A DNA stretch of 64,000 bases from Crossaster papposus (Eukaryota > Echinodermata > Asteroidea > Velatida > Solasteridae): contig JBAIAA010000019.1 of the NCBI GenBank assembly GCA_037893245.1, positions 682,001 to 746,000 of the forward strand, in the 5' to 3' direction. This document shows, one piece after another, positions 4,223-34,500 of the stretch (its first letter is position 1; the number at the start of each line of letters is the position of its first letter). Below the pieces are notes generated by a model that saw nothing but the letters and a program-made list of their open reading frames with translations, searched no databases and was not told where the DNA came from. The translations under genes and the position numbers were made by a program.

Positions 4223-4285
4223 ATGCCTACCACATCGTACCGCACCAAGACCATCCACAGCATTCTGGATCCAGTTGCCCAACAG
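4223..4285 (+). CDS. VCL: Vinculin exon 1 (start codon; residues 1-21)
   Basis: The exon encodes the N-terminal helix start [20 protein letters not shown] plus one Gln, matching the vertebrate vinculin N-terminus (hTRTIxSILEPVAQQ). ATG at 4223 sits in the context gcgcaATGc, and it is the only start that gives the family N-terminus. The donor is GTGAGA, phase 0. The transcription start is unknown. About 500 bp upstream lacks a clear TATA box, and the 5' UTR may begin in this same exon. Confidence 0.95.
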
Positions 4286-6667
4286 GTGAGATTAATTTAA
4301 ATTTCAACTTGCGATTGTGTAGTTTTGGGCCCTTTCCGTCTAGTCTTCCCAAATTCCATAAAATTAATAATGTACAGTAAATTGTAGGCCTACGCAGGGG
4401 CCAATTTCATAGAGCTGATAAGCACAACAATTTGCTTAGCATGACAATTTGTCCTTGGCAAAAACAAGGTTATATTACAGACCAAATTTTAACCTGATCT
4501 TTATTGTTCTGGATTGATAATCAGCTGTTTTTTGGCTTAGCATGAAAAACATGTATAATTTTGTGCTAAGCAAATGTTTTTGCTTAGCAGCTCTATGAAA
4601 TCAAATTGGGCCCAGCTGGCTAGCTCTTTAATTTAAAGGTAGAATACACCATGGTAGTTGCTTAAATTATCATGAATGGGTGGATTCGGGGGTTTGTATT
4701 TTACAGTAAATATCGTTTAACTAACCTGTCCGAAGTTTTACAATCATGAATGCCGAGGAAAGCACAAAGAAATAGCGTTTGTTTTCAACCGACGTCGAGC
4801 AGTTATTCTTACCAGTATGTTATGTGTGTTTTTTCTTTATTGTCGTCCGGCGATCGCAAATTTGTCTTTATAAAATTATATTTTTCAGAATAATTAAATG
4901 ATATCTAGCACAATTTTTTTGCTGGATGCCTAGAATAATTATTTACTTTCAGGTGAGTAAGATTTTTCTTAATAATTTGGTAGTAAATTTTTTCGATATC
5001 TGCAAATGGTGTATCCTACCACTAGAGTGAAGGCCGGTTTGTACTTCACGCGAATGTCATTGCGAAGCGAATTCGTTAAGGTATTACGTCACAATGAAAC
5101 TTCAATTGTTTACGTCATGAAATGCGCTTCGCATTCGCTTTTGCGTGAAGTATGAACAAGCCTTCAGACCCACGGGCCCTAGAAGAACTCCTAGAACTTT
5201 TTCTAACTTTAGATTTAGCTTGTTGTACCGGGGCCCCACGCCGAACAATAAACAGTTTGCAAAGTCTCTTACGTGCAGCTAAAAAAAACACACTAAAACC
5301 CCAACAATTACCGGTACTTAACAAAATACCTCAAAAATGCCTATAGCCTTCCATTTTTTTTTTCATAACAAATGTGTCCAAGTTTAACTTCAGGGGTACT
5401 CGCAAATAATCCATGACCTGCAAATCCAGGAAATTCGACGACAGTATTCGAGCTGGTAACTGCACTCTTGTTGTTCGCTAGTCCGAGTAACTACATGTAC
5501 ATAGGACCCAAATATCGCTTTTTTAACATCTGGACATGATCTTGCGATAGTAGGGTCCTAGGGAGTCCCATTGGTTTTTTTACATTTAAATCAAAATGTC
5601 ACTTTTCCCATATGCATGCCAAAGAAACATCAGATTTCAACCTCAAAACAGCCACAAAAGTACTCGATAAGTCATCTGAGATTACAAGTACAGATCGACG
5701 AATAAGATTGTGGTACTAGCTTAATTCCGCAAGCTGCCTCGGCACTTTGCTTCCGTGTAGGTATGCGACGTGTTGGTAGCCCGCGCGACCAACACGCATC
5801 GCATGGGACACGCGTGGGACCAACACGCATCGCATACCGCGCCGACACGGCAGCAACATAGAATGGAATGGCCCTGTATTCTATGGGTATTGGTGTACAA
5901 CTATAGAGTACAGGGCCACTTCATTCTATCTCCTAGGGTAAATAAAGAAGAGAGTAGTACATAAGTTGAGCTGCCCTGCATTCTATAGTTACTCCGCAGT
6001 ATGCAGCGCGTGTAGGCCGCCGATGTGGGCGCCCTCTAACGTACGCCGTAGAGTAGACTATGCCATCATCTTGTCTATCTACCGCTTGAACAAATTTGAG
6101 CGGAATTGTGTCACCTTTGCATGCGCTTGTGACGTTGCGTGCATAATTACATGACGTTTAAACAGAAACTTGACTAATGATTTAGCGATTATGCATGTTA
6201 CGTCATGCAATTATTCACGCACCGTCACACGCGCATGCAAATATGCGACACAATTCTGCTCGGGATTGTTCGCGCGATTATGAGACAAGATGACCTATTG
6301 GAAGGTTATGACATCGCGATTAGGTCATCTAGCAAACAAGACTTGTATCTGCTAATGTTACGAACATTTGAATTTTCAATTACAGGCTTATTTTACTTAA
6401 TGGGCACTTTGGGAGACAAATTAGCGATAGTTTTGATTCACTTGGGAGACAGTGGCACTTAGGGAGACATTTCAGTGTCTCCCTAAGTGTCTAGCTACCC
6501 CACAAAACGATATTTGGGAGTTATTTTTGCTCGGAGAAGACAGATTTGGGTCTAAATAGCATAAATATGTAATTTCGTGGCGAAAGCTCCAGGTAAAAAC
6601 GGGTTAGGGTACAAAAAAGATTGTGCACGTCTCTATGGGATTGTCTCCCAAAGTACCCATTTGGGCG

Positions 6668-10536: not shown

Positions 10537-13500
10537 CAATCGCCCTGTACGTGTCAACGGTAATTGCGACATCCGACTCATTTATGTAGAGCGGGTCACA
10601 TTTGAACTTTGAGCAAGTAATCAATATGTAGGCCTAAACACTTCTCCAAAATGTCTCCAAAATGGAAGGCGCTGTGGAACTATACTAAATGAAAGCGTAC
10701 GTTGTGGGCTTTCTAAGTATCACTCAATTTCATTTTTTTGCGACATAAGACACCTTTTTGTAGAGCCGGTCACAAATACAGGTATGATACATTGTACATG
10801 TACAGTGTATCTCTAAATAAACTTGTATTCTTTTTTTATTTTCACGTTTCAAGGTTGGGCAGCTAGTGATTCTACATGAACAAGCTGAAGATGGAAATGC
10901 CATGACTGATTTGACCACGCCCATCAAGATTGTAGACCAAGCTGTCGGTAACTTGGTTGCAGTAAGTGCAGACATCCAATCGCTTAAGCCCAAAAAACAT
11001 ATTCCTCGGCTCCGCCCTAACAATTTTTTTGTTAATTAAAAAAACCAAAAAACATGAAAACCAAGGTTTACATAAGCTCTTAGGTTTTTTATGGCGGCCA
11101 TCTTGAATTTTTTGAATAGCATTTTGGTGACGTCATGATGATGTCACACATTTTTTACAATTGTATGCATATGTCTATGACCCAATAAACATATTACAAA
11201 AAGAATTTTGAATTTATTATGTTCTGTTGATAAGATATGGCTTAAAGGTCCAAAAATGAAACAAAATCATAAAAAATCACACGATGACGTCATCATGATG
11301 TCACTTCAATTTATATCTTTAACACATCCCGCCATACCTGCATACCAAGTTTGAACCCAATCGGACTTGGGTCTGTCCACACTAAATGTTACAACTGCAC
11401 AACATCCCAATTAGCTCTCATTTAAAGTGTGTTGAAACTCAGAAAATAAACTTTAATGATGGTAATAGTAGTTGTACAATTGTTGAGAGATAGTGTACAC
11501 AATTATAAAGGATTTGGTTGTTGGTTAATACAAAAATGAGAAATTTTATAAAAATGTCCAGCAAAGTTTTGGGGGTCCTGGTGGGACATGCATAAACCAT
11601 GGCAACTCATGTTTTTCTCCAGGTTATATAAGAGGTGTTATTACACAGAAAAACAATTGACATGTTAAATTATGGTTGGCAAAAATATCAACTATGAGAA
11701 ATCTGATCATTTTTCAAGCCCTTTCTTTATTGAAGGTGTTAATAATCGAGAATTTAGGAACAGCATGTAATTCAGCCATCCCGTACGTCATTGTGTCTGT
11801 CCATTTGGTGACAAACGTGATACTGGCTGGTACTGACATTTTATCAACAATAAATTTCAACAAAAATATATTTATCTTGCTGAGAAATCATCTGGCTTTT
11901 ATTCTGAATACCATTTTTGTGCATTTGGATTCGTTGGGTAACAAAACACAGATCCATTTGAAGGAAATGCAAATTTCTGTCAATTTTTTTTAAGGATTAT
12001 TATTATAATTGCACATACATTTATAACAAAGATATGTGCAATGCAACTGCCATTATTTTCTTAGAAAGGTTTGTGCATTTTGCTGAACGAAAAATGAAGA
12101 GTACATGTATGTCTGTCCCCAGCTCATGGGAAAGTGACATACGTGATCTTACATTGTACAATGCACGTGTCTGTCCTGTGACAAACGTGATGTCTGTCCA
12201 GTGACAAACATTATTCAGTGAAATAAAATTACAAGTTTAAAATCTAAATTAAAACTTCTTTCTGCAAGTAAAAATAACAAGTTAACTTTGAAAGAATATT
12301 TAATAAGTTAGGCTAGTTATCAATCATGGTTTTTACTTTTATTTGTTAATTTAAGAAAAAAAATGTCTGTCCTCGTGACAAACGTGATTATTGCTGTCTG
12401 TCCATGTAACAAACGTTATTTCAGATAAGATGTCAGTATTTCTTCATTTCCAGTTATGTATGGTTAAACAGTCTAAAGAATTTGTTTGGGGGGTTTTCAG
12501 GGCAATTCTACTATTCTCAGTTGTTAAAAAGTTCTTTATCAATCCCAATAATTATAATTTGATACCGTCTTGTCTGTCCCAGTGACGTACGTTATTTTCA
12601 TGGCATACTTCTTCCCATAATTTCTTAAGAAAGAATAAAGTTTCTTACTAAAACAAAATATTACAAAATTTGTTCATCTTGCTTTGAGTTATGGTTAGGA
12701 AAAGAAAAGTGTCTGTCCATGTGACAAACGTTACATCTTAAAGATTAACCATCAATAACTTCTTAAATATTGCTAAAGTTATCTTTACTTTTCTAAACTA
12801 ACAAGGATATAGGGTGAAGATATGTGCAAGCCAAAAAAAATGGAAACATTTTACAGTTAACATTTTCTTCTAAATGTCACACAGTTGTAACGTTTACTGT
12901 GGACAGACCCACTTATACTTTCAGAGATATAGGGCATTGAATAAAAATGACATCCAATGACTTTTCATGTGTCACATCACATTAAAGAACCATTTTTATT
13001 AAAAAAAAACTTTTTTATTCAAAAAAAAACTAAAAACAAATGTAAACATTGGTTTTCTTATTGGTATATCCTAACGTATCAAAAAATGTATAGTTTAGCA
13101 AATCTACAAAAAAGTGAATGAAACTTTCAATATGTACATTATGAACCTGACTATTAGACCCATCTGTACAAGTCAATCAAATCAATTTTTGTCTTCTGTT
13201 TTTGATCTGATTCTACCGTAGGTCGGTAAACAAACTGCTGAAACCAGCAAGGATGAGATACTTCGTCGTGAGATGCCTCCGACTTTGAGGCAGGTGGAGC
13301 TGTCTTCCGGTTTGTTGGTCGAGGCCAGCGCCATGCTGAAAGCGGATCCTTACTCGGTGTCAGCAAGGAAGAAATTGATTGATGGAGCTAGAGGTCAGTA
13401 CAGCCAAAGCGCCGCGGGCCAATTTGGCGCCTCGGGCCAATTCGGCGTCTCGGGCCGATTCAGCGCCTCAGGCCGATTTGACGCCTCGGGCCGATTCGGC

Positions 13501-16500
13501 GCCACGGGCCAATTTGGCACCACGGGCCGATTCGACGCCTCGGTCCAGTTCGACGCCTCGGTCCAGTTTGGTGCCTCGGGCCAATTCGGCGCCACGGGCT
13601 AATTCGGCGTCTCGGGCCAATTAGACGCTTCGGGCCAATTAGGCGCCGCAGGCCAATTAACCGCCGCAGACCATTTGAATATTGCGGGCTAATATAGCGC
13701 TGTGGGCCAATTAAGCGCCACAGGCCAATTAAACGCCATGGGCCAATTAGGCGCCTCATGCCAATTAGGCGCCGCAGGCCATTTGAGAACCGCTGCGGGC
13801 CAATTAGGTATTGCGGGCCAATTCAGTGCCGTGGGCCAATTAGGCGCCTCAGCCCAAATAAGCGCCGAGGGCCAATTAAGCGCCATAGTGCAATTAAGTG
13901 CCGCGGGCCAATTGAGCGCCCTGGGCCAAAGCGTCGCCGGCCAATTGAGCCGTGGGCCAAATTAGTCCTTCTGATTTGAGGCGTGCGATCGCACCCCCAC
14001 GCCATCGCATGCCTAAAAGCTTTCCCAGGCGTGCGAATAATCGCACGCCTTGATCTCTCTGCACCACACGTCTCAATTTACATTTCCAGCGTAATCAACT
14101 TCATACAATTTGTGAAATAAAATACGTCAGTGATTTAGGAAAAAAAAGGAAAAAATTACGCCCACTGTATTTTGTATTGATAAACCATGGATCAACTTAG
14201 TGCCGGTAGCGTGGAACGGATTTCGCTGGCCGACAGTCTGCCTTGTCCGTACATGTACCGGTACGTACAATTTGACCATTGACGAAAGCACGTGCGAAGC
14301 ATGCGAGCGTACCTGGTACCACACTACACTAAAAGATTACACGCACAGGCCGTTTTCTAAACCCCAGCTTAGGGCTCAATCTGCGGCTCCAAGCGGTTCC
14401 ATCACCATTGCCAAACTGCACGAACAAGTTAGACTGAACGGAGGCGCAGGCAAATCTGGAGTTTGGAAAAGGCCACACACTCGCACGGCTGTATTTTGTG
14501 CGAGGCAAACTGATTGGTCGGTGGCAATGCTTTGACGTGGTTTCGGCCAATCGTGTTTAAGTTCACAAGTACTCTCGGCGTGCTGGCACGCGCGACAGCG
14601 CTAGTCTGGTGCCGTTTAATTCTGGTGCGGTGACTTTAGTGAGTGGTATTGAGTAGTAACGCTATTTCGTTGTTGCAAAAGACTTCGCAAGTTGCAGATT
14701 TTTGTTTAAAAATGTAGGCAGTAGTAGTACATGTATGTATTGTTTGGTGGATGTCATCATGGAGGACTCGAGCGTACATAGTTTAACCACGGAGTTTAAA
14801 ATGGAGTAGTATTATCAGGATATGACACAAGGAGACAGGTGGCAACCTAAGAATTTTGTTTTCAAGTTTTATTCATAATATTTTTTTAAAAGATCTTTTG
14901 CCTACATGTACATGTACAAATTACATACATGTTGTACATTGCTACCCACAGTGCAATTTTCAGAAAACCAGCTTTAAAATGACAATTATGCCATTGTCTA
15001 TAGGTTTTAATACAAATGTAATTCAGAGTAATTATAGCCTGCAAAATTTTCCTAAATACACCTGTCTGTCAAATCCTTTGTAATGACAAATGCTAAGTTA
15101 CATTATTTCATCAAAATTCAACCTGAACCACACATTTTTTTAGTTATGGTACTACTGTATCAGTAACGTAAAGTTGATGGCAATGTCTAGTCATGTATGA
15201 CCAGACTTTGCTTCACTAAACACAGGGTAACTTTTAAGTGGGTGGTTAGATTTTGATAAAATAAAGACCGTTTGTCCTTTAAGAAAAATTCATGTCACAT
15301 ACATGTACACGAGAACCAGCAATAAAATACTTGTCATTTTTGGCTGTGACTGAGATCTTGAAATGCCTTTACTTATTATAAACCAAGGTGAGAAGGTACC
15401 AGGGAGTCCCTGACAGCATTCAGTAAGGTACATGTACTGTATCTGGCTGCCCAATTTATTGTAGCGCTGCGAGCACCAGTATTGGTGGATGCGAGCGTCA
15501 GTACATGTATTGGTGGATACGTGTGCGTTATACCTTGATTTAAGCCCCAGCTTGAACCACCGATAGCTTTGCAAAATCACACCCCTAAAACATCCAGGTG
15601 TGCCTTTTTCCACACGCCTGTGATTTTCAAATCAGAAGGACTGGCCAAATGAGCGCCGTAGGCCAAATGAGCGCCGTGGGCCAATTGAGCGCCGTGGGCC
15701 AATTGAGCGCCATGGGCCAATTGAATGCCACGGGCCAAATGAATGCCACGGGCCAATTGAGCGCCGTGGGCCAATTGAGCGCCATGGGCCAATTGAATGC
15801 CACGGGCCAATTGAATGCCACGGGCCAATTGAGCGCCGTGGGCCAATTGAGCGCCATGGGCCAATTAAATGCCACGGGCCAATTGAGCGCCGTGGGCCAA
15901 TTGAGCGCCGTGGGCCAATTGAGCGCCGTGGGCCAATTGAGCGCCATGGGCCAATTGAGCGCCATGGGCCAATTGAATGCCACGGGCCAATTGAGCGCCG
16001 TGGGCCAATTGAGCACCGTGGGCCAATTGAGTGCCATGGGCCAAATGAGCGATTAAAACTAGTTAACCGCTTAAAAACTATCCGGGTATCCGTTGAGGAA
16101 TCCAACCTCAAAACTTCAATATCAAAGGTGGTTAGGGGTAATCAGCCCTTAGTTTGTACTCTTGTTTTCCATGTAGGTATTCTGGGAGGCACATCAGATC
16201 TTCTGTTCGTCTTTGATGAGAGCGAGGTCCGTAAGATTGTCAAGATCTGTGAGGGGGTCTTAGGGATACTGGCAGTGTCCGAGGTGGTCGACACCATGGT
16301 GGATATCCTAACATTCGTGCAGGTAAGAACGCAGCGCTGTAATCATGCCAGTGACAAGCTAGGCATACATGTAGTTAAAGGTAGGATACACCATTGGTAA
16401 TTGACCATTTGCGTGTGGAATTTAAATAATATCTGGTACACTGACTTGTTCACGCAGCTTGGCACAGTTTGACTTAAAATTATCCAGACCAAATATACTG

Positions 16501-19500
16501 TTGTTATATCACGTGATTCGGGGCAAGCTCTTGCATAGTTACGTTAGAGACGCTCAGCACCAATACATTGTTCACAATGGTTGAGAATGGTACAAAGACA
16601 CCAGACCATTCCAGAGCCGGGGGTTGCTAGCATAAGGCTTGCCCCGAATCACGTGATATAGCAACAGTGTCTTTGGTCTGGAGAATTTAAATGTAAACTG
16701 TGCCAAGCTGTGTGAACAAGTCAGTGTACCAGATATTATTCAAATTCCACATGCAAATGGCCAATTGCTTGAATTATCAGGAATGGGTGGATGTAAAGGT
16801 AGTATACACCATTAGTGATTGCTTGAATTATCAGGGATGGGTGGATGTAAAGGTAGGATGCACCATTGGTAATTTGCTTGAATTATCAGGAATGGGTGGA
16901 TGTAAAGGTAGGATACACCATTGGTAATTGCTTGAATTATCAGGAATGGGTGGATGTAAAGGTAGGATACACCATTGGTAATTGCTTGAATTATCAGGAA
17001 TGGGTGGATGTAAAGGTAGGATACACCGTTGGCAATTGCTTGAATTATCAGGAATGGGTGGATGTAAAGGTAGGATACATCATTGGTAATTGCTTGAATG
17101 GTCAGGAATGGGTAGATGTACGTAAAGGTATAATACACCATTGGTAATTGACCATTTGCGTGTGAAATTTAAATAATATCTGGTACACTGACTTGTTCAC
17201 GCAGCTTGGCACAGTTTGACTTAAAATTATCCAGACCAAATACACTGTTGCTATATTACGTGCTCTGGAATGGTCTGGTGTCTTTGTACCATTCTCAACC
17301 ATTATGAACAATGTATTGGTGCTCTGAGCGTCTCTTACATAACTATGCAAGAGCTTGCCCCGAATCACGTGATATAGCAACAGTGTCTTTGGTCTGGATA
17401 ATTTAAATGTAAACTGTGCCAAGCTGTGTGAACAAGTCAGTGTACCAGATATTATTCAAATTCCACACGCAAATGGCCAATTGCTTGAATTATCAGGAAT
17501 GGGTGGATGTAAAGGTAGTATACACCATTAGTGATTGCTTGAATTATCAGGGATGGGTAGATGTAAAGGTAGGATACACCATTGGTAATTGCTTGAATTA
17601 TCAGGAATGGGTGGATGTAAAGGTAGGATACACCATTGGTAATTGCTTGAATTATCAGGAATGGGTGGATGTAAAGGTAGGATACACCATTGGTAATTGC
17701 TTGAATTATCAGGAATGGGTGGATGTAAAGGTAGGATACACCGTTGGCAATTGCTTGAATTATCAGGAATGGGTGGATGTAAAGGTAGGATACATCATTG
17801 GTAATTGCTTGAATGGTCAGGAATGGGTAGATGTACGTAAAGGTATAATACACCATTGGTAATTGACCATTTGCGTGTGAAATTTAAATAATATCTGGTA
17901 CACTGACTTGTTCACGCAGCTTGGCACAGTTTGACTTAAAATTATCCAGACCAAATACACTGTTGCTATATTACGTGCTCTGGAATGGTCTGGTGTCTTT
18001 GTACCATTCTCAACCATTATGAACAATGTATTGGTGCTCTGAGCGTCTCTTACATAACTATGCAAGAGCTTGCCCCGAATCACGTGATATAGCAACAGTG
18101 TCTTTGGTCTGGATAATTTAAATGTAAACTGTGCCAAGCTGTGTGAACAAGTCAGTGTACCAGATATTATTCAAATTCCACACGCAAATGGCCAATTGCT
18201 TGAATTATCAGGAATGGGTGGATGTAAAGGTAGTATACACCATTAGTGATTGCTTGAATTATCAGGGATGGGTAGATGTAAAGGTAGGATACACCATTGG
18301 TAATTGCTTGAATTATCAGGAATGGGTGGATGTAAAGGTAGGATACACCATTGGTAATTGCTTGAATTATCAGGAATGGGTGGATGTAAAGGTAGGATAC
18401 ACCATTGGTAATTGCTTGAATTATCAGGAATGGGTGGATGTAAAGGTAAGATACACCATTGGTAATTGCTTGAATTATCAGGAATGGGTGGATGTAAAGG
18501 TAGGATACACCATTGGTAATTGCTTGAATTATCAGGAATGGGTGGATGTAAAGGTAGGATACACCATTGGTGATTGCTTGAATGGTCAGGAATGGGTAGA
18601 TGTACGTAAAGGTATAATACACCATTGGTAATTGACCATTTGCGTGTGAAATTTAAATAATATCTGGTACACTGACTTGTTCACGCAGCTTGGCACAGTT
18701 TGACTTAAAATTATCCAGACCAAATACACTGTTGCTATATTACGTGCTCTGGAATGGTCTGGTGTCTTTGTACCATTCTCAACCATTGTGAACAATGTAT
18801 TGGTGCTCTGAGCGTCTCTTACATAACTATGCAAGAGCTTGCCCCGAATCACGTGATATTATCATATAGCAACAGTGTATTTGGTCTGGATAATTTAAAG
18901 TCAAACTGCGCCAAGTTGTGTGAACAAGGCAGTGTACCAGATATTATTTAAATTCCACACGCAAATGATCAATTGTGAACCTGGTCTCATTTAAAAACTT
19001 ACAGTCCGGTTGCAATCCAACTCGGGTCAAGTACTGAGGTCAATGGTCATTTGAGTTCAAGTTAAATTGGTAATCGTAAAAGTAGGCGAAGTCTGCATGT
19101 AGTTCGAGAACCATCTTTTTGTCTTTGATTGTTCAGAGTTTGACACCTATAGTGACTAGCATGAACAGTCAGGTGACCGGTCGTCGGGAAGAGCTGATTA
19201 GCGCCTCCCATGCGGCCCAGCTAGCTCAGCATTCGGAGCAGTTTCAGAAGTTAATCCCTCTACTGGTCTCCAGTATGAAGATATACGTCACCGTAGTAGA
19301 TCAAGGTAAGTCTTGATAAGATCAACCCTCCGACGGGCCACCGTACTATTTCTGGTAGTCGCTTCGCCTCAAACAAGCAATAAATTGTTCATCAAAGGTC
19401 AACAAAATCTTATGTTACATGTATTCCTAGTTCAAAGCATGCCGAATAACAGGGTAAGTGCCGAAGCCGTAAAACCAAAACAGCTTGGGGGTATACACGA

Positions 19501-22500
19501 AATACAAGCGACTATCGAAAATAGTACATAGGGCGTTGGTGTAAAAACAAGATGGCGGCTCGTCGTCGCAGCTTTTTGAGGTCTGGATTTCACCGCAAAC
19601 CTTCCCAAGCATTAATCAATCGTGCTATTGTTGTCTTGCCTTATTCAACAACACCAGCTAGTTTCTGGGTCTCTGACCTATCGATAAAGGGCTGTGTGAA
19701 CTTATAAAGCCGTAAAACCAAAACAGCTTGGGGGTATGTACCGGTACTCTAAATACAAGCGACTATCGAAAATAGTACAGAGGGGGTTATTTTATTGCCC
19801 ACCGGCGTTGTTTGTCATGTTTGGCCGTAGCTGATGGGATTGGGTTGTGTAAAGAAAAAAAGAAAACAAACCAAAAACCATTCATCATAGCCAATATGTT
19901 ACCTGCTCCAACAAAACCCGGACAAAGTTAACAATTTTTGTTTTTTAGATTTTGCTTTTTTCAAATTATCTAGGTTCTCGGCTTTAAAATCATGTATCAT
20001 TTACATATGTACCGACATCCTATCTTCCCGGGGAAAAGGATTTAGTAATAAAACCCTGACAACCTAATTATGAGATAAACAGCTTTAAAGTTCAGAAAAT
20101 TGACACAAAAGAACCACTTTAAATAGTTCCGGGTGATGGATTATGTTCAAATTTGGGGAGAATGTCGATTTAATAGTTTGTGATTTAGAAAAACCCAAAA
20201 CCTCAAAATGGTAAAATCAACCCTGAGACTTCACAAGTTCATTTTAATAAAACTCATTGTGCAACTTTGTCCGGGTTTTGTTTAGAACAGGTCACACATA
20301 TGAATAAACCTTGAAAATTAGCTGGAAGTTCACAGCAAGCTTGTGCATTCGTGCGTATATATGGCGGGAAGTGTGTATTTGGTTTCAGAAACATGAGATC
20401 CAATGATTGTTTTGTTGTTTAGGCAAGTCAGGCAAGCAGGAAGCATGGGAGAATCGTGCCTATGTGGCCAGTAAGATGATCTATCACATTCAAGAGATCA
20501 TCAGGGTGCTTCAGGCCGTGGTAAGTACTGACAGGAGACTTCTATCAATATCAGAGAAATCAATACAACACGTTATGATAAGTAGTACACAGGCATAGAA
20601 ATAGTACTAGCCCTAACGTCCGTCGATACATTTATATGGGTCTTTCCATAAATAAGGGGGCCAAAGCAGGACATGGTGTTATTTCTCAAAATGTAATTTA
20701 CTTTCTATATTCTTTGCATGTTCGTATGGTGGGGATAGCTCATACGTTTAATGTATAACTTCAATTTCTTGAATCACATGTTTTGTTTTCATATACGATC
20801 CAAAACTATCCATCACACTGTAACGGAGACACCGGTGTCTCAGTTACAGTGTGAAGTGTGAAACTTGTGACTTGTTTTGCCATAAATTAGTAGGTTTTCA
20901 TTGAAAATTTAAATTTCAAAGGGTAATATGTAAACATCATTGGTATACTGTAATTCAGCTATTTTCAATGAAAACCTTCAAACGTTGGCCAAGCAGTAAA
21001 GGCCGACAGTTTTACGCGTAACCGTGACACTGGTGTCTTTGTTACACTGTGACTCAAAAAGTACTGTCTCTCTTATTATGCATCATAAATGTCTGAATCT
21101 AGCAAAGTGCATAGTAATACCTGCTACATACATGTACATGTAGCAGGTATTACTATGCACTTTGCTAGATTCAGACATTTATGATGCATAATAAGAGAGA
21201 CAGGACTTTTTGAGTCACGGTGTAACAAAGACACCAGTGTCACGGTTACGCGTAAAACTGTCGGCCTTTACTGCTTGGCCAACGTTTGAAGGTTTTCATT
21301 GAAAATAGCTGAATTACAGTATACCAATGATGTTTACATATTACCCTTTGAAATTTTAATTTTCAATGAAAACCTACTAATTTATGGCAAAACAAGTCAC
21401 AAGTTTCACACTTCACACTGTAACTGAGACACCGGTGTCTCCGTTACAGTGTGATGGATAGTTTTAGATCGTATATGAAAACAAAACATCTGATTCAAGA
21501 AATTGAAGTTATACATTAAACGTATGAGCTATCCCCACCATACGAACATGCACAGAATATAGAAAGTAAATTACATTTTGAGAAATAACACCATGTCCTG
21601 CTTTGGCCCCCTTATTTATGGAAAGACCCATATCGATATTACTCAAATACTTGTTACTACCTGAATTTTGACATCGATATCGCCGATGTCACTTTTTTAA
21701 TCATATCGACATTTCGATGTATCGAAAATTTTGATGCATCTAAATTTTGATGTTCCTAAATAATATCGAAAACACCGAAAGAGTGTCAGATTATCCAGAA
21801 AATTTCAGGGCTTTAGTATATTAGAAAAGCTGCCGTCTTTATTTGTAGCTTAAAACATTTGAGTAGGCCTATTAAATAAAATACGTTCAACGACCAACTG
21901 CGGTTGTGAAGTTGTTCTTTGTGTTTCACCCGCGGCCCGCCGCTATAGTTCACGACCGCTTGCACAGTAAAATCTCAAAAGAAACCGGCCATGCCGCCCC
22001 AGCCTATCGGTTGTTTGGGATGTAACCCTCCATTGATCTGATGTCATTTTGAGGTGGCCAATCACGAGTCGGGAACTGCGGGGAACGTTCTCTGCACCCT
22101 GCTATACGCCTAGCAAGCGGAAATGGCAACCGTAATTATTTCTGTAAAACCATTATACGTGGGCTGGTGCAATTTGATATTGTTCAAGCCGACAACATGC
22201 GCGGAGGATCAAGCCAAAAACCGGTATATATTCAACCCTATTAAACTGTCGGTCTTCAGTATATTGAGCGCTGTTTTCAGGCTTCATCTTGCACACAGCA
22301 AATAATCGATATATCGAGTATACTCGATATTGAATTTCCGATATATCAATTATTATTAAAAACTGACATCGACGGACGTTAACTATACATAGCCCAGCGT
22401 ACAAATTCTAGCAAAAACTGCTCCGGGCTACCTTGACCCACTTCCTTGGTTGCCCGGTGGGCTAGTGAAAAATTCAGTAACCTACCGGTACCTGTAAAGG

Positions 22501-25500
22501 TTTAGATAAAAATACATGTTAAAATTGTTATTGTCTTTATGTGTATTAAATAAATATCAGATCAAAATAAACTGAGTATAAACTGTCTTTTGATTGTGTT
22601 TTTTGGCATGATTATCGATAGCCTGGGAGCACTCGATCCACGCGTGCATGCAGTGCACTGCGATCTCACGAACTAGAGTAGACTGGTGGGCTTCAGTGAG
22701 ATTAGTATAGTATAAACTACGGCGCAGGGTACCGCACATATGTGATGCGATCAAGCAATATCAGTCGGAACTCGGCAATTCTTGTTTTGAGATAGGGCCA
22801 AAATATGTTCGTAGGGGTGGACAAATCCAAATTGACTTTTTTACAAAAACAGATGGGGAAAATATTTATCTTTTACATGAAAATACTCTTTTAACCAAAT
22901 TTAGAAGGGAAGTGATACACAAACTTTATTTTCTCAGTTTCTTTATTTTTAACGTGCTGGTGTTCAAATGGTTTAAATTTTTTAACCAAAGGTCGTATTC
23001 ACATGGGATTTTCACTGAAATGGAGCCTGAAGTACGCTACAAAAGAATATGTAAAAATTCCAAAAATGACATGGGCCTACTTCAGACTGATTTTGCTTTA
23101 GAGATCGCATCACATATGTGCACTATTCTCTTTCACATCGTTCAGCCTTTCTTACCATAATGGCCCACTGCTTAGCTGTATAGTACTGTACATGAGCGTT
23201 CTGCCGTGTCACTAGTAGTAGCGTCTGATAAAGAGTCTGTTCAGAACAGCGCCCTCTGTGTACGTTGCTACGGATGTACGTGTAAAATGTGATAATTTGA
23301 TATTACTTGTTATTCTGTTATACTGTAATTGAACTTATTTTAAACACTGTGAATTTCTTGTCTAAGGACAGCGTTGAAATAGATGTACTACAATGTACTA
23401 CTACTCATTTCCATAATTTGGAATCGGTTCCAGACATCAACGGTCGGGTACTTGAGTACTCTGTTCCGATGCACAGCCCTACTACGGGTGCTCATTTCCA
23501 TAATCTGGAATCAGTTCCTGACGTCAACGGTCGGGTACTTGAGTACTCGGTTCCGATGCACAGCCCTAACATAATTGAGATATTTGTGTCTTGTATCTTG
23601 TTTGTATTAAGGATGATGACAGTTTCCGTGTGGATAATGTGAAGGGTCTCCGTGAAGCCCAGAACCACATCAAGAACAATATGGCTGAAGCAATGGGCTG
23701 GTTGAATGATCCTAACGCAGCAGCTTGGGGGATGGGTAAGTCGTTCTTCATTTCGGCCTGATTCACGGGTCGGCCATCTTGATTTTAAAGCAAAGTAAAA
23801 TCTTCATTTTTGAAACCCACTCCTCAACAAAAAAAACATTTCTGGGTGACGGATTATGTTCAAGTTTGGAGAGATTGTAGATTATTAGTTTGTGATTCAG
23901 AAAAACTAAAAACCTCAAGATGGTAAAATCCACCCCGAAATGACTTCACGAGTACATGGTAATAAAAGACATTGTGCGACTTTGTCCGGGCTTCGTTGGA
24001 ACAGGTCACATATTATCCATTTTGGTTGCATGTGCTATGTACAGCACTCGTTTATATTTCGTACTTTCTTTTGAGACACACTGTATGGTGCATTGTACAT
24101 GTAGATGAAATTGTCCTGGTCCTTCAACCCTAACCCTACCTAATGCTACTTTTTACTACTAGTAGTAACAAGTAGTATGCAGTACTCTAACTGACTTGTG
24201 TGCAATGCCTGTAGTAATTTTTAGTATTTGGTACTTCACCCCTAATTGCACTCGTAGTACCGTAATTTCCTGCGGTAAAGACGCGGCTTATCTGACTTTT
24301 TAGACCACAAAAACATCGCTGCGCCTTATCTTTCGGTGCGCCGTATATGATGTCGCTTGAGTTCAAAGTGACGGTCTTTGTGTGAAGAATTCTTTCAACG
24401 CCACAATCTTACTCAATAATGCGGTCAACCAATTAGATAAACTCTCCGGACATTGTGACCGAGTTTCCATTCCAACAATAACGCGATGTGTTGATCCCCC
24501 CCCCCTCCCCGCCCCCAAGACCGTGCTTTCAGTTTCATTCCAACAATATGCTTGGGCGATACCACCATATAATCGAAAATCGCAATAACAGTTCTTACGA
24601 TATTGTGTCGATGCATTTCCTAAAAATAGGAAATGGTCCAAAATCGCCCCCGTAATATTTGCCGCACGACTACGAGCGGCCGTTCTCTCTGATCCTACCG
24701 TAGTAGCGCCACTGCTAAGCGGCCGCGCCGGCGCGGCATGCAGACCGGAGATCCAGAGCGCGTGGTAAGTATAATTTGATATAAATTGTTGTCACAATTA
24801 CATGCGCACGCGATTTCACGCAACGACCCACAGACATAATGTACATGTACATGTACATACTAGATTTAGCACTCGGCAGCGCGCGCTACATGACGCATAC
24901 AACAGCGATAAAAAGCTGGCCTGTACAATACCATGTGGCCGTTTTCTAAACGTTTTTTTCGTCTACGTTCCGGCTTCATGCAATTCACCATCCGAACTAC
25001 ACAGCGCGGAGCATTCACAACGACTGGAAAAAAGACTAGGGGGTGTCGCAATTGAGCAATTAGGGATACCCCTCTCTGGGCACGCACGCGATCGCTGCAT
25101 GTGCTATGTACATGTATGCATGCAGTTTATACTGCAGTGCAGTGATACATGTATCGGCAAAGTAAACCTCGTGCGATATTGTGACTGTACTGGTTTGAAG
25201 TTTTCATACATTGTTTGCGTGCCAGATAAACTCAAGTACTCAGCAAATTCTTGCTTGGAATAGTGGGATCGTTCTAAGGCAACAAAATGACCCCTTTGTG
25301 GCGATGTACCTACACCGGGTGGCGCCTGGTGTTCTTCTGGGTGCGTTCAAGCATGCGCCTTATTCGGCGGTGCGCTTTATCTGTTGACGTTTGCATTTTT
25401 TGGGGGTGATTTTAGGGACCTGCGCCTTAACCGCCGAGCGCCTTGTCCGCAGGAAATTACGGTACTTTTTAGCATTGGGTCCCTCTGCTTGCTGAGTGTG

Positions 25501-28500
25501 CATGGCTCATGTATGCTGTGTACGGTGTTCTAAACTCTACAGCAAAAATTGTCACTTGGGACACAGCAATGGGTCAAGGCTGGACTACTGCATTTTTTGG
25601 CCAGGTAAGTATTACTGTATTACTGACCTGTATTGCCACTATTAGTATTTTGTAGTTGGCAGTATCTGTACTCTGTCAGTAGACACCCAATCATCAGTCA
25701 CGGAGAGACCCAGTGCTACAAAATACTAAGTAGTATTCTGTAGTACGTAGTTCTTTAGCCCAAAGTAAGGCCTAGGGGGTTAGGGATAAAGTGTTAGTTT
25801 GTTTTATAACCCGAAGGTGAGAAAGCTGTTCGACGGATACTGGAAGACGCTAGGAAGGTTGCGAGTGGTCTGGATGGGCCTAAGAAGGCAGAAATCGAAC
25901 AAGCCATCGATGACATTACTGCCTTGACTAATGAACTGTCTGATCTCAGAGCCAATAAGCAGGTAAGGCAATCGGAAGAACTGGGTATGTGCATAAGTCA
26001 TGACCGAGGATCCCCTATTGTGTTTCCCTTTGTTCCTAGTATTATTACTATTAAGATGCTTTTTTTAACAGCATGACCACACTGTCAGAAATTATTTGGT
26101 CACATTGTTGGATAATCACAGACTTAACCAGTTTGCGCCGGAGGACGTATATACATACGCAAGGTTTTCCCCAGAGTCAAAATATGCATAAACACGTCAC
26201 GAGCCGCCGGAAATGTCTGTCAGCAACGAGCGAGGCCGGAAATGCGCGGGTGTGCTTCCCGGTACCATCGGCCTGAACCCGCCTCGGATCGAGTTTCGTT
26301 GCGGCTCGGTGATGTTAAAATAATTTCGGCGCGGACTGGTTTAAATCCTGTTGATACGTACATGTATACGTTGAAGGCGTTGATTTTGACTGTTACAGGG
26401 AAATAGTCCTCGTGCGTTGCAGCTGGCCCGCGAAATTGGCGGCAAGCTGGACAAATTGGAGAGCCAGATTAACGATGCCATTGCAGAGATACTGAAGAGC
26501 AGCATGGGTAAGATGGCCTACACCGCTGGAGGGAAGCTAGCGCAAGCAGAAGAATGGCTCAACAACCCTGGGGCTGATGACAAGGGAGTGGGTAAGACTC
26601 GTAGAGCTAGATTAACGATGCCATTGCAGAGATACTAAAGAGTACATGTAGTATGGGTAAGGTGGCCTACACTGCTGGCGGGAAGCTAGCGCAAGCAGAA
26701 GAATGGCTCAACATCCCCGGGGCTGACGACAAGGGAGTGGGTAAGACTCATAGAGCTAGATTAACGATGCCATTGCAGAGATACTAAAGAGTACATGTAG
26801 TATGGGTAAGGTGGCCTACACTGCTGGCGGGAAGCTAACGCAAGCAGAAGAATGGCTCAACATCCCCGGGGCTGATGACAAGGGAGTGGGTAAGACTCAT
26901 AGAGCTAGATTTACGATGCCATTGCAGAGATACTGAAGAGTACATGTAGTATGGGTAAGGTGGCCTACACTGCTTGCATGATCCGCGTAAGTTGTTTGCG
27001 TTTGTTCTACTTGCTTGGCATTGCGTTTAGAATACACTGTTAAAATTCAATCCATTTATTGTTATTATGTTCTACAACACGCTTATTTCTTGTAGATTTC
27101 ATTTCTCAAATTATCTCAAAACGTCAAGATGCCTACTTTACAGCCCTTTTGTCGTGGACGGTCACATTTGCCCACTGGTCTGTTGTTCCTAACGGTATGT
27201 CTTCGATGCTCACCACTAACAGGTTACCGTGCCATCAAGGACATCATTGCAACCGGACGTCACATCGCCGGCACCTGCGATGACCTCGGCCAACGCAACG
27301 ATCTTCTCCGACTTTGTAACGAGGTCGAATCTCTGAATGATCATCTGAAAGATTTGTGTAAAAAAGGACAGGTATGATTGGCTCAAAACTGAAATGCCAC
27401 AATTTTAGCTATTGGTGGTCCATAAAAAAACCCGGACAAGCATTTTTGCACTACCCTGAAGCCCAAACTACCTATACCCGCCTCGACTCCATGGGTGCGT
27501 GCCTGTTCCTTCTCTAACCCCATGCCGTGAAGAACACGTAAACGACACTGACTGGCTATTCAGTGCGTAATGCGCGCGTATTTTGTAAACTGCACGTCTG
27601 GGCCCAATTTCATAGTGCTGCTAAGCAAAAAAATTTGCTTAGCACAAAAAGTCTTGCTCATTAAAAACAGGTTACCAGCCAAAATTGTACCTGTTTTTCA
27701 AGCTAAGTAAAAAAACAGCTGATTATCAATCCAGAACAATAAAGATCAGGTGAAAATTTGGTCTGTAACCTTGTTTTTGCCAAGGACAAATTGTCATGCT
27801 AAACAAATTTGTGTGCTTAGCACCTCTATGAAATTGGCCCCTGAATGTAATGCGCTCGCGCGTTCCTGAACGTCATGTCATGTACGAAAATTTGGGTGTC
27901 AAGACTATGCAATACCGTACAATATGGATTTTGGAAGCCTCGTTTTATTGCCCCCAAACCTGTATCTTACGTTGTAGAGGGACGACAAAGTTGCGTACAT
28001 TTAATATAAAACCTTGCAAAACAACGCGACGTCAAAATATCATGTTTGAAAGGATTGATTCTACAAAAATAACAATTACAACATGTTAAACATGGCGCTG
28101 CACGTTAAACGCATCGACTGCAGTCTTTATTTAAATGTTCAACTGACAGCTCAACTGACAGCTCAACTGATTCAACGCTTCTCTTCTCTTTTCAGGGTAA
28201 CACGCCGCAAGCCGAAGCAGCTGCCAAGAAGTTGAGAGAGAAGCTGGGTCAGTTGAATGACAAAATGACGGAGATTGTCATGGGTCAGGTCACGTCCGAT
28301 TTCCTTGACCCAATGTCTGCCGTCAACAAGATGTGTGAGGCAGCGCTAGCTCCTGAAGGTATGTCTTAAGCGGTGGTCACATCTTACGGTCATGAACGTA
28401 GTTGAACGTAGTATGGCGTGTCCGTAGTTGACCGTAGTAGACCCTAGTAGTCGTAGTTAAACGTAGTTAAACGTGGTAAAACGTAGTTAAACGTAGTTAA

Positions 28501-31500
28501 ACGTAGTTTAACGTAGTGGACTGTAGTTCTGAACGTACTTATACCTTGAGGAAAGCCATGATTTGGCCGTATAGTTAGCCCAAAAGTTTTCAACATGTTG
28601 AAAAAATGTCTACGGTCACCTTGAATGCCTATACCGTACTGTGAGCCTAGTATATACGTAGTTGACCCTAGTTGACCCTAGTTGACCCTACTTGACCGTA
28701 GTGTGGACCCTAGTTTACCCTACTTGACCGTAATGTGGACCGTAGTTGACCGTAGTAACCACGGCACTACGGTTGAAGTACGGTCAACTACGGTCTACCA
28801 CGGTCAAATGAACTACGTTCAACTAGGTTCAACTACGTTTATGACCGTAAGATGTGACCACCGCTTTAGAATGACTTTCCAACTCCTTCCAATATCACAA
28901 CCTCCAATACAATCATGTCAATGGTAGAGCAGTATTATTATTAATGCTTTCTGGTAATGAAACAAGGATTCCTCAGAAGCGCCCAAGGCACTGTAGCTCG
29001 CGAGCCTGAAGAAACCTGTAGAGAGAAGACAATGAGAAGAAGGTACAGTTTTAGAGGTGGGAGGAAAACCCCAGAAGAATATCCTGGGGGAAACCCACGG
29101 AATCAAGCAGGGACTGAAAACCCAGTCCACATGTTGGCCCAGGCCGGATTCGAACACGGGTCGCAGTGGTGGAAGGCGAAGAAAGAACCGCTACGCCAAC
29201 CTGACTCCCCCCAGTATCATGAACAGTACTGCCAATTAGGCTACAAAACACGCCGGATGACGTATATAAACGCAAAGTTTTCCCCAGATTCAAAACGGTT
29301 GACGCATAAACACGCCACGAGCAAGGCCGGAAATGTCTGTCAGCAGCGAGCAAGGCCGGAAATATGTGGGTGTGCTTCCCGGCACTATCGGCCTTAACCC
29401 GCTTCTGATCGAGTTTCGTAAAAAAAAAATTCCCGCCCCTCGGCTTGGTGATGTTAAAATAATCCCGGCGCGAACTGGTTAAAAGTAGGATATAAACATC
29501 CACACAACCAACCTTTTAAAGGTAGTATACCATTTGCAAACATCCCAAAAACAAAATACAACCCCCAAATCCACCCATTCCTGATATAAATGCAAGCAAT
29601 TACCAATGGTGTATCCTACTTTTACATCCACCCATTCCTGATAATTCAAGCAATTAGCAATGGTGTATCCTACCTTTAAATCCACCCATTCCTGATAATT
29701 CAAGCAATTACCAATGGTGTGTCCTACCTTTACATCCACCGATTCCTGATAATTCAACCAATTACCGTTGGTGTGTCCTACCTTTACATCCACCCATTCC
29801 TGATAAGGCAAGCAATTACCAATGGTGTGTCCTACCTTTACATCCACCCATTCCTGATAATTCAAGCAATTACCAATGGTGTATCCTACCTTTACATCCA
29901 CCCATTCCTGATAATTCAAGCAATCACCAATGGTGTATCCTACCTTTACATCCACCCATTCCTGATAAGGCAAGCAATTACCAATGGTGTATCCTACCTT
30001 TAACCAGGAACTCCACACCGTGAGGCTAACTTCACCAGCAAAGCCCAGATATTTCTGGAGGGTAGCAACAGAGCCGCTGATACCGCCGCTCGTTTTGCTG
30101 GCATTGCTGACGCAGACAGAGACACGGTAGACCAAATTCATCGACTCAGTAATCAGGTTGGTAAATGCTGTATTTCCTATTTGCAGGGTTGTAGTCGAGT
30201 CCCTGCAAGTCCTTTCACAAGTCCTTTCGTGAAGCCAGTCACAAGTCCCTTCATAAAGCCAGTCACAAGTAACTGGATGAACAATGACAAAGGAATGCCT
30301 TTGTCAAAGCTGATTTGAATAGCTTGTGATTTGAATTGGAACTGAAGTTTTGTGATGGACTTGCAGGGACTTACAGGGACTTGCAGGGACTTGTGATGGA
30401 CTCGTGGTGGACTCGACTACATCCCTGCCTATTTGCGACCTGGCACCACGAAATGAGCGGAAAGTCGCACATGTCCAAAACGAGTTGTTGGCCGAAACGT
30501 TCATTTTACAAGTGGGAGGTCGGTTTCGGGTTGTTAACGTTTTTACATACAGAAACACCTTCTTTATCATATCTCAACATTTGATATAGCTCAATTAAAA
30601 CTCTAAAGTGTGTTATTTGGTAGCTGAATTGCACTGAGTGATAGTATAGTTGGCACGGTTTACGGACTTTGAACTCCGTTTACTCAAAACAAGGGAGCAT
30701 GACTTCAGCAATTTCAAAAGAGTATAGCGGCGCCTAGGAATAAGCTACAAGGGGGTGTCGGAACACAGGGGTGTCGGAACACAGGGGTGTCGGAACACAG
30801 GGGTGTCGGAACACGGGGGTGTCGGAACACGGGGGCGTCGGAACACGGGGGTGTCGGAACACGGGGGTGTCGGAACACGGGGGTGTCGGAACACGGGGGT
30901 GTCGGAACACGGGGGTGTCGGAACACGGGGGTGTCGGAACACGGGGGCGTCGGAACACGGGGGCGTCGGAACACGGGGGCGTCGGAACACGGGGGCGTCG
31001 GAACACGGGGGTGTCGGAACACGGGGGTGTCGGAACACGGGGGTGTCGGAACACGGGGGCGTCGGAACACGGGGGCGTCGGAACACGGGGGCGTCGGAAC
31101 ACGGGGGTGTCGGAACACGGGGGTGTCGGAACACGGGGGTGTCGGAACACGGGGGTGTCGGAACACGGGGGTGTCGGAACACGGGGGTGTCGGAACACGG
31201 GGGTGTCGGAACACGGGGGTGTCGGAACACGGGGGTGTCGGAACACGGGGGTGTCGGAACACGGGGGTGTCGGAACACGGGGGTGTCGGAACACGGGGGT
31301 GTCGGAACACGGGGGTGTCGGAACACGGGGGTGTCGGAACACGGGGGTGTCGGAGCACGGGGGTGTCGGAACACGGGGGTGTCGGAACACGGGGGTGTCG
31401 GAACACAGGGGTGTCAGAACATAGAGGTGAATAAGATTAAAACTGCTGCAAACTGCTTACTGGCTGGAATGACCTGAAATATACAAATCAAATAAGTTAA

Positions 31501-34500
31501 GAGGGCCTAATATTTCGATCTTAACAAGATCTTCTTCAGATTTTGGAGTCTTTCCGATGGCCAAGTGATTCTATGCCCTGTAGAATCATATCAGAAATGC
31601 AATGGTTAGGCTGATTGAAGTAGTGAACATAGAGGTGTCGGAAATTTATTATTATTGTAAGCCCACATCTTAACTAACCTGGGGCCAATTTCATAGAGCT
31701 GCTAAGCAAAAAAATTTGCTTAGGGGCAGTTTCACGGGAAAGGTTGCAAAAAAGTCTCACAGGGGGTCAAAAATGAAACTTGTTTCATCGCTAAAACATG
31801 GTTATTTGTTGAAAGTACATACATAAAGGTACTAGAAAATGTGAATGGCAAAGCTGAAACATTTTTTCGTTTAAATTTAAAGACACTTTACACTTTGCAG
31901 ACTATAGAATTGGTGAAATGGAGGTAGGTATCATAAACTGCTTATTCCACATATCAAACATGCTTGGAGTTGCTTTAAAATGATTGAAAGTCATTACAGT
32001 AGTCATGTCTTGAATATTAATGCACTCTAGGCTACGAAAAATGACATGATTTTTCATATATTGACGGAAAATTCAGTTTTATAACTTGTTTTCCTTGAAA
32101 CACAAACTTTCATTTCTGTTTTACAGGAAACCATGCAGCCTGCTGATTATTTGCACTTTTGTCCAAGGACTGTATGCATGGTAGAACAATTGGCAAAGAA
32201 ATTGCATTGATAGTGTCCTGCTTTATAGAGTTACCATGGTCTTTATCATGGCTATGAAAAGGGTTCATTGTGTTCAGGAAAGGACAAATTTTAACAAATA
32301 CTACATTCGGTCTAAAATTTGATCTTATGAGAATGAACTTTACAAGAAATATAACCTTAAAACTACTAAAGAGTAGCAATATAATGACATGAACATAGTT
32401 TGTTAAGAAAATTAAATAAAACTGATAAAATATGTTTGATATACAGCGTGCATGATGTGTTACTACATGTACACCAACATACTACATGTAGGTAAAGCAT
32501 GTTAGAGTAACTTATTTATTTGTAAAAGTGTTATTTAGGTGTGTTTTTTTTTTTAGAGTTGGGAGGTTATACATTTGTGAGGCAGATCAGTTTGTACCTT
32601 GTTAATGCTGCAACTAACTGCTGTGTATTTACGTTTAGGAAAGGACACAATATTTAACAAGTTCTACATGTAGCATAGCATTTCCTACATGACAATAAAG
32701 TAAACTAAAGTAATGTCCATCACTTTAAATGATTAATAATCATTGCTGGTGAAAATAACTTTAAATTGAGACATTGATACACGTACAGTGTATGCCCCAA
32801 CAAGAAATGCTTAGATAATTAAACTATTATCCAGTGAACTTTATTCAGTCAGCATGGTGCTTTCTACAAAATGGGGTCTAAGGAATAGGCACATCAAGCC
32901 CAAAACAGTTTGAAGTATTTGTACACTTGTATGCATGGAGGAAGGTTCATGTGTATCTGTACTTGTTCCTTGTTAAATGTTTTAAACATGTTCAGGAAAG
33001 GACACAATTTTTAACAATGATCAATATACAAGTTTTTCAGTGACAATTTCAATAAAAGAATACCAATCTTGACAAATTTACTGTTTTACACAAAATTCTG
33101 ATAAAATTACTTCAGAAGTTTTTGGTTAAATACATATATCATTTTCATTTATGTTCAGGAAAGGACACACATTTTAACAATGTTCAACATGGTCCTATAT
33201 GTACTTTAACAGAAAATAGCAACCCTCGCAAACTAACCGTGTGTGTCACAAAGCTCTGATACATAGGTAAAACTAATGAAATGGCTGGAAACACAGAAAG
33301 AACTCTTAAAAGAGTGTCTAACAGATGTTGCTCAACTCGTTAAAAAAAGTGTCCTTTCCTGAACACTTTAATACACAGAACTAGACTAAAACATTAAATT
33401 ATAATTAAATTGACTCAAACTAATGCATGTATTTTGTGAAAGTGATGATATGAAACTGTAGATCAGCCAATTCCTGACAAATATTGGATTTAAGTGTGAC
33501 TTGTTAAGATAAATGTATATGCACATGTGTACTCATACTGTGTGTAAACACGAGTGAGTAAATGACCTGTAAGAACAAAACACTAACACTTTCTGGCCAT
33601 AGTTGGTTTTAATTTTAAAACATGAACTCTACAGACAATATAAGCATATACTTCATCAAATTTAAGCAACAATGGCTTTTTCAAGTACTCTGTTAAACTA
33701 TATGTTCAGGAAAGGACAATGCAGTTTAACAACAATGTCACAACAGCAAGCAGGGTTCGAGTCTGAATCTTTGTATAGTCTGTTAAATCAAGTAAGTCTA
33801 CCCCTAGGTACATGTTTATGTCAAACAAGTTTTATCTCTGACTTCATGTAAAAAAGGGGAGGCCATGTTCAGGAAAGGACATTTTTAACGAACATTTGCG
33901 TGGCATATGCGACTGCTGCTTTATCAAATTTACTTGTGATTTCCCAATTCCAATATTTTTATATTTTATTACTGGAGTATGTAGCATAATTTTGACAGGC
34001 AATAAGTTGTGTTTCCTTTCTTTTCATTCTAGAAAAAATATCATGTTCAGGAAAGGACATTAAAAAAAAACCTTTAACGAACAAATCAAAGTCTCACTCA
34101 AAATAGCATAACAAAAAAACGAGTTGGCCCAGCCTAATGAAATCTGGTGTACAGATTTTGGGGACATACTTCTATGTCCTTGCAAGTCTGGGTGGTTCAT
34201 GTGGCATTTATTTTTATTTCTCATCAATTGCAGTTCCAAGAAAATGTGAATGAGACTCCAAATCTTGTGTTTTAGCACTCATGTGAGCTTATAATTTGAG
34301 AATCGTAATACGTAAAACTGTGAAATTATTTTTGGAGACTCCTACAACATAGAGGTCCTTGTAGGACAAAAACCAGCAAATTCCCACAAAGTCTTCTTGT
34401 GAAATAAAGCATCGATTACCTATTTTTCATTTTGCAACCTTTCCCGTGAAACTGCCCTTAGCACAAAAAAGTCTTGCTCATTAAAAACAGGTTATCAGCC

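Follow-up and report, generated by a model that had tools for sequence, protein, structure and literature searches.

The window analysed here is a 64-kb stretch of the Crossaster papposus genome (G000:C19:682001-746000; genome of 1.02 Gb in 1841 contigs) that holds two non-autonomous DNA transposons, E1 and E2. E1 lies at 11369..12910 on the plus strand and is flanked by the target-site duplication (TSD) ACTT at 11365..11368 and 12911..12914. E2 lies at 31724..34457, likewise on the plus strand, between two copies of the TSD TTAG (31720..31723 and 34458..34461). The terminal inverted repeats (TIRs) of both elements start with GGG and measure ∼28 bp. In E1 they are GGGTCTGTCCACACTAAATGTTACAACT at 11369..11396 (plus strand) and its partner at 12883..12910 (minus strand); in E2 they are GGGCAGTTTCACGGGAAAGGTTGCAAAA at 31724..31751 (plus) and its partner at 34430..34457 (minus). 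As aligned, the TIR arms span 30 nt with 93% complementarity in E1 and 31 nt with 97% in E2, in each case including at least one flank base. Relative to its consensus of 1620 bp, the window copy of E1 lacks 47 + 41 bp; the E2 consensus is 2762 bp long. Neither consensus contains a transposase frame, the longest ATG-started open reading frame (ORF) being 92 codons in E1 and 81 codons in E2. The boundaries, the TSDs and the common plan (4-bp TSD, ∼28-bp GGG TIR, no transposase) had been proposed in a first-pass annotation of the window, and all of them were recovered.

E1 and E2 are young, multi-copy, non-autonomous DNA transposons. Genome-wide, TIR patterns tolerating up to three mismatches match at 164 places for E1 (82 + 82) and 175 for E2 (96 + 79), which suggests roughly 80-90 copies of each. 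TSDs and motifs were counted at 22 distinct loci for E1 (window copy excluded) and 23 for E2 (window copy included). The TSDs of E1 are exact in 18/22 cases and contain one mismatch in 4/22; all 18 exact ones follow the pattern ANNT, with C and G occurring at the middle bases. For E2, 18/23 are exact, 4/23 have one mismatch, and one locus has none; these TSDs are AT-rich, without the A..T pattern. Divergence from the consensus ranges from 0.37 to 1.05% among 16 aligned E1 sequences and from 0.91 to 1.60% among 19 E2 sequences, window copies included. Loci with inserts, deletions, or a damaged end (L031-L037 for E1, L054 and L056 for E2) stood outside these alignments. The two ends of E1 (consensus 1-27 and 1594-1620) are consistently distinct, with fixed TIR differences (CACACTAAATG versus CACAGTAAACG, and CACAATAAACG in a few copies).

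Both elements repeat a bipartite motif along their length. The window copy of E1 possesses eight, all on the plus strand, each consisting of half-site A (GTCTGTCC), a gap of 1-15 nt, and a half-site B that resembles GTGACAAACGT. The first, at 11795..11818, combines GTCTGTCC with GTGACAAACGT across a gap of 5. It is followed by motifs at 12111..12144 (gap 15), 12169..12188 and 12192..12211 (gap 1 each), and 12365..12385, 12396..12416, 12572..12592, and 12711..12731 (gap 2 each). A ninth A half-site at consensus position 603 was removed from the window copy by the 47-bp deletion. The window copy of E2 carries eight TGTTCAGGAAAGGACA motifs, seven on the plus strand and one on the minus strand. 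Their A half-sites lie at 32271..32286 (followed by half-site B, TTTAACAA), 32632..32647 (degenerate), 32989..33004, 33152..33167, 33350..33365 (the inverted one), 33703..33718, 33866..33881, and 34044..34059. Every A half-site of E2 is followed by a half-site B of the form TTTAACRA at a gap of about 2-13 nt, and there is one extra, solitary TTTAACAA. Because the gap varies, the half-sites look like separately recognised modules.

These numbers are far above those in 200 shuffles, a control applied to both E1 half-sites and to half-site A of E2. In the interior of the E1 consensus, half-site A (≤1 mismatch) was seen nine times, always on the same strand (shuffle mean 0.43, maximum 3), and half-site B (GTGACAAACGTKA, ≤2 mismatches) ten times, twice inverted (mean 0.10, maximum 2). 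The E2 consensus interior has eight A half-sites, seven of them on one strand (mean 0.01, maximum 1). Seven of these eight are identical over all 16 nt, and the eighth is one base off. Counting 9-mers that occur at least three times, with tandem repeats masked, gave 11 in E1 and 14 in E2. The annotated figure of at least eight interior motifs per element is thereby confirmed, with a ninth in the E1 consensus. The motifs are also kept in most other copies, a point on which the first-pass proposal could have failed. All 11 A half-sites (nine internal and two in the TIRs) are present in 20/22 E1 copies, the other two (L034 and L037) having large internal deletions; E2 copies have eight motifs in 18/23 cases and seven in 5/23.

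Each motif resembles the TIR of its own family and not that of the other family. In local alignments, the score of the E1 motif against the E1 TIRs was reached by none of 2000 shuffles, whereas its match to the E2 TIR is unexceptional (p 0.25). The E2 motif aligns with the E2 TIR at p 0.023 and with the E1 TIRs at p 0.38 and 0.19. A kinship of motif and TIR, proposed from inspection of the window, is supported by these tests. The segments between motifs are little alike, with mean z values of 0.29 (21 pairs) and 0.61 (36 pairs) and three pairs at z 3.9-7.0.

The position of the E2 motifs relative to a transposase gene can be read from a gene-bearing relative, L059 (G000:C83). This element is 6823 bp long and has E2-type TIRs with identical 20-bp ends and an exact TSD, TTAC. 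It aligns to the E2 consensus on two sides, over 2762-1565 on one and, in several pieces separated by additional DNA, over 1563-1 on the other. The two sides are split by ∼3.5 kb of extra DNA with transposase reading frames, broken by a frame change. In the window the corresponding point falls at 33260..33262 (consensus 1563/1565), as read by placing the consensus against the window. Four E2 motifs are found in each arm of L059. This layout indicates that E2 is an L059-kind element minus its gene and that its “interior” consists of two long non-coding arms. The first-pass description of sites in a true interior accordingly has to be revised for E2: the sites sit in arms that flank the gene in L059, and the arrays are subterminal ones fused by gene loss. 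Searching with an E2 TIR pattern that barred the known subterminal sequence returned one exact match among the ∼100 best places listed, which is the E2 copy L056. A second candidate, L060 (C547:44500-49500), was set aside; these 5 kb, part of a 13.4-kb interval bounded by two E2 ends, contain E2 sequence, and the single frame scanned in them has no Pfam match.

For E1, the corresponding evidence comes from L075 (G000:C53), a one-ended relic. It starts with the right TIR of E1 and 220 bp of E1 at 99.1% identity, including the counterpart of the motif at 12711..12731. Past this segment it runs into the C-terminal part of a related transposase, and the remaining gene is missing. The link between E1 and this transposase is direct for the right 220 bp; the other 1.4 kb would, by analogy, represent the second arm. 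Identity of the L075 frame is 63% with matches at C1097 and at C213; it is 46-49% with several further families and, over two short segments, 37-38% with L059. Searches with the L075 piece also gave a fragment at C246 with 69% identity, the next nearest, and at C176 a DNA match of 37 bp. For the autonomous relative with the same TIR and a 4-bp TSD that the annotation had anticipated, E2 has an interrupted, gene-bearing counterpart in L059, which retains both TIRs; E1 is represented by the relic L075. Farther along L075, ∼2.7 kb past the transposase fragment, a long frame on the minus strand (4252-5781) has the look of a BEL-type retroelement when its translation is read by eye.

Longer E1-like loci (L031, L033, L035, and L036) were considered as autonomous copies and rejected. 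Their extra DNA consists of nested or other inserts, and a scan of it for the E1 motif found none. Among the ∼100 best places listed for an E1 TIR pattern barring the known subterminal sequence, there was no exact match. L033 (G000:C191) and L035 (C502) have different flanking 4-mers and carry the same foreign inverted-repeat insert, with GGACCGATCC ends, at the same E1 position. An E1 loaded in this way, of ∼2.5 kb, seems therefore to have moved.

The frames of L059 (E2 ends) and L075 (E1 end) belong to one alignable protein family, with 30-38% identity over the shared stretch. By this comparison E1 and E2, which also share the 4-bp TSD length, are linked to one transposase superfamily and lie far apart within it; the alternative of two unrelated superfamilies, raised at first pass, is not what was found. 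The transposase features a zinc-binding-like region (CLCEYCEN...CxxRxCxxCGV) and three conserved blocks, DFAENY, (F/W)(S/T)DGCxxQYKS, and FFGSRHGKGPxDGE, whose conserved D residues are candidates for three catalytic Asp. The third acidic candidate (HGKxxxDG) is Asp in 8/8 covering rows, and the next residue is Glu in six rows and Leu or Gln in two E2-side rows. An invariant Asp followed by a varying residue points to a candidate DDD triad. The transposase frames scanned gave no Pfam match above the cut-off, THAP included, and no relatives were confirmed in viral and prokaryotic contig collections. A tblastn search with five transposase proteins returned 0 matches within the 64-kb window.

Two known groups were rejected as a home for E1 and E2. 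CACTA/Chapaev elements share the 4-bp TSD and have a TIR starting with CAC, not GGG as in both elements here. The piggyBac and Kolobok target is TTAA, whereas the TSDs of E1 and E2 vary, and among exact ones TTAA accounts for just 2/18 in E2 and 0/18 in E1. A 4-bp TSD together with a candidate DDD triad fits a Sola-like superfamily, a likeness drawn from published descriptions and not from protein comparison. Sola elements are described as having a DDD transposase, a 4-bp TSD, a size of mostly 2-9 kb, and TIRs of 11-1124 bp (PMC10741241). E1, E2, and L059 share this TSD length, and L059 is compatible with the element and TIR sizes. Within Sola (Sola1/2/3), Sola2 invites comparison above all. 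Its target is given as AT-rich AWWT (PMC3627910); that of E1 is ANNT, with middle bases that include C and G, and that of E2 is AT-rich, without A..T. The internal site arrays of E1 and E2 are not mentioned in those parts of the Sola descriptions on which we drew.

Arrays of E1-type motifs also occur in families with related transposases. L076, whose transposase is 63% identical to that of L075, has three GTCYGTCC..GTTACATACGT sites and three GTGTGTCTCCGTTACACCCGT-like sites. The ends of L076 were not found. In L077/L079 (45% identity), three E1-type sites lie no more than 300 bp from GGGTCTGTACACACTAA, a related TIR of L079. L077/L078 gave a right TIR and no left one, and the three clustered motifs are all that supports this family. 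In a small tree, E1 and L076 group together (bootstrap 97%); support for a wider group that includes L077 is weak (57%; FastTree 0.73). Genome-wide, a form of the motif that excludes E1 gave 96 matches versus 12 for a reversed control, and these are mostly L076-type pairs by eye. Such matches cluster in near-single orientation (minus in 21/23 at C164; plus in 16/16 at C428, 11/11 at C697, and 10/10 at C362), as if in a tandemly repeated locus and not freely transposed. Overall, two deep lineages show arrays, whereas in others these are either lacking or escaped detection.

The sites are spaced with some regularity. Successive steps are 180, 177, 58, 23, 173, 31, 176, and 180 bp in E1; 380, 364, 163, 199, 353, 163, and 178 bp in E2; and 360, 365, 237, 365, and 376 bp in L076. 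A common period of about 176-186 bp, or its double, exceeds random placement, with a combined p of 0.0005 (the floor of the test) for E1, E2, and L076 and 0.0015 for E1 and E2. The best period of each family is weak singly (p 0.025, 0.043, and 0.031), and a period fitted to E1 also predicts the spacing of E2 (p 0.007) and of L076 (p 0.010). These values come from a post hoc test, in which the period idea arose from the same data and the placement ranges and tolerances were our choice. The regularity of L076 may reflect unit duplication instead.

We consider it probable that E1 and E2 represent two distant families of one cut-and-paste superfamily, that their arms were joined after loss of the gene, and that their arrays are predicted bipartite transposase sites. 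Both elements would then consist, for the most part or entirely, of the long non-coding arms of an element that bore the gene. The repeated motif would be a recognition site made of half-sites A and B at a variable gap, with a TIR relationship of both half-sites in E1 and of half-site A in E2. Binding by the transposase is suggested by this resemblance. Arrays on both sides of the gene might load many transposase molecules onto the element, provide recognition specificity, and help to bring the ends together, so that multiple sites could raise mobility. Non-autonomous copies that keep both arms would remain good substrates, and repression by titration may follow as a consequence.

Several results weigh against this explanation. 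Half-site B of E2 (TTTAACRA) has no evident counterpart in the TIR by eye. Searches with the L075 piece found no second near-identical copy, and the sole E1-type coding piece of this kind that they found is truncated. The 3′ flanks examined (L072, 2.7 kb; L070, 2.8 kb; L066, 1.3 kb; L064, 1.5 kb) yielded no E1-type motif; the count of 9-mers present at least three times there, with tandem repeats masked, is 0, 1, 0, and 0, respectively. The left-arm steps of L059 (383, 722, and 385 bp), which were outside the spacing test, do not fit 2 × 179 bp. Among E2 copies (19 sequences), the motifs show no extra conservation (variable sites 26/241 versus 264/2465 elsewhere, p 1.0). Between the E2 consensus and L059, sites differ at 1/116 motif versus 53/1354 other positions in the left arm, a suggestive result (p 0.06), and, in the wrong direction, at 3/125 versus 10/1041 in the right arm (p 0.16). 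The conservation above background on which the first-pass annotation had staked its proposal is thus seen in E1 (16 sequences), where motifs are less variable (7/232 versus 109/1332, p 0.004), and not among E2 copies. Within-family tests of this kind have little power, since the copies are young and their variation is probably mostly post-insertion. The identity of 7/8 E2 half-sites over 16 nt between mostly unrelated spacers is the stronger argument in favour of the sites.

The motifs might instead be sites for a host DNA-binding factor, acting as promoter, enhancer, or boundary to drive the transposase gene and carried passively by non-autonomous copies. The four-plus-four flanking of the gene in L059 would suit such a role, and near-regular spacing also suits a nucleosome-phasing factor. 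We regard it as unlikely, since the motif resembles the TIR of its own family and not the other's, and since sites are also found 3′ of the gene. Moreover, in three families the E1-type motif tracks transposase relatedness, a pattern that a shared host factor does not call for.

Less probable still is an origin by tandem duplication, in which the arrays would be a passive leftover, an internal satellite that has degenerated, with motifs identical through recency or gene conversion. The regular spacing speaks for it. In L076, two motifs 376 bp apart have similar surroundings (71% over 94 nt), consistent with unit duplication, and among E2 copies the motifs are as variable as the spacers. Duplicated units would not readily account for near-identical E2 half-sites separated by segments that are little alike in E1 and E2, nor for the presence of both orientations in E2 and L076, and the resemblance of motif to TIR is left unexplained. 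The first-pass suggestion that the elements are decoys, soaking up transposase to repress transposition or to outcompete gene-bearing copies, is the least probable and found no direct support: the putative 80-90 copies of each element with 8-9 sites do contrast with one interrupted L059-type element and one truncated E1-type relic, yet the same sites are present in the gene-bearing E2 relative and hence were no acquisition of the non-autonomous copies, and titration would be a consequence and not an origin.

An extension of the two-family explanation concerns chromatin. A period of ∼178 bp is close to common nucleosome repeat lengths, which motivates a chromatin-scaled reading and does not prove it. 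Spacing near 178 bp or its double could correspond to a single site for each nucleosome repeat; whatever positions nucleosomes take up, some of the sites would then fall in linker DNA. We tentatively propose, while doubting it more than we credit it, a deep DDD clade with chromatin-scaled ends. Its sites would follow one another at intervals of 1-2 nucleosome repeats, along 1.2-1.6 kb to either side of the gene, the site would co-evolve with TIR and transposase, and gene-less copies would succeed by retaining the whole array.

Arrays of transposase sites have partial parallels. hAT elements, like Ac/Ds and En/Spm, have subterminal repeats with sites within a few hundred bp of each end, and the hAT TSD is 8 bp. 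E2 differs in both respects, with arrays over 1.2-1.6 kb on each side and a TSD of 4 bp. Galileo, a Foldback-like member of the P-element superfamily, has multiple sites for a THAP-domain transposase in its long repetitive ends, for which roles in specificity and higher-order assembly were proposed (PMC3688188). The predicted sites of E1 and E2 are likewise multiple and within the ends. In Galileo, as described there, they lie in tandem repeats of long TIRs, whereas the TIRs of E1 and E2 are ∼28 bp, their arms are mostly unrelated to each other, E2 sites are single and ∼160-380 bp apart, and the transposase frames scanned lack a THAP match above the Pfam cut-off. In Hermes, several transposase DNA-binding domains are described as touching one transposon end (PMC10368747).

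The arrays bear on how a transposase finds ends several kb apart in chromatin and on why some non-autonomous elements stay long. Near-identical recent copies with countable end-like arrays offer a natural series for site number, spacing, and chromatin phasing. They also link two families that classification by short TIRs alone would not unite.

Repeats of a different kind accompany several of the transposase genes. Those of L066 (838-1120) and L070 (770-957) were considered as motif arrays and not counted, being tandem repeats with units of 21 and 24 nt in head-to-tail order. Detected by Tandem Repeats Finder, they lie ∼0.2-0.35 kb past the stop of the main transposase frame, within short frames that are open, and they would encode repeated peptides, possibly a coding tail in a later exon. 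By eye, 7-residue KKGTADV-type repeats occur inside the frame of L075 (550-1536) and AQDADGD-type repeats in a separate frame of L059 (3693-3998). In several families the transposase gene has short tandem repeats, with unit lengths divisible by 3 nt, at its 3′ end or past it.

Seven matches of near-equal score lie in uninterrupted 811-amino acid frames (C599:2273138, C53:1037637, C165:410105, C352:3508378, C841:703590, C919:146700, and C1246:156708). Two of these loci are 98.7% identical over 6.5 kb, indicating a family of this superfamily with recent activity.

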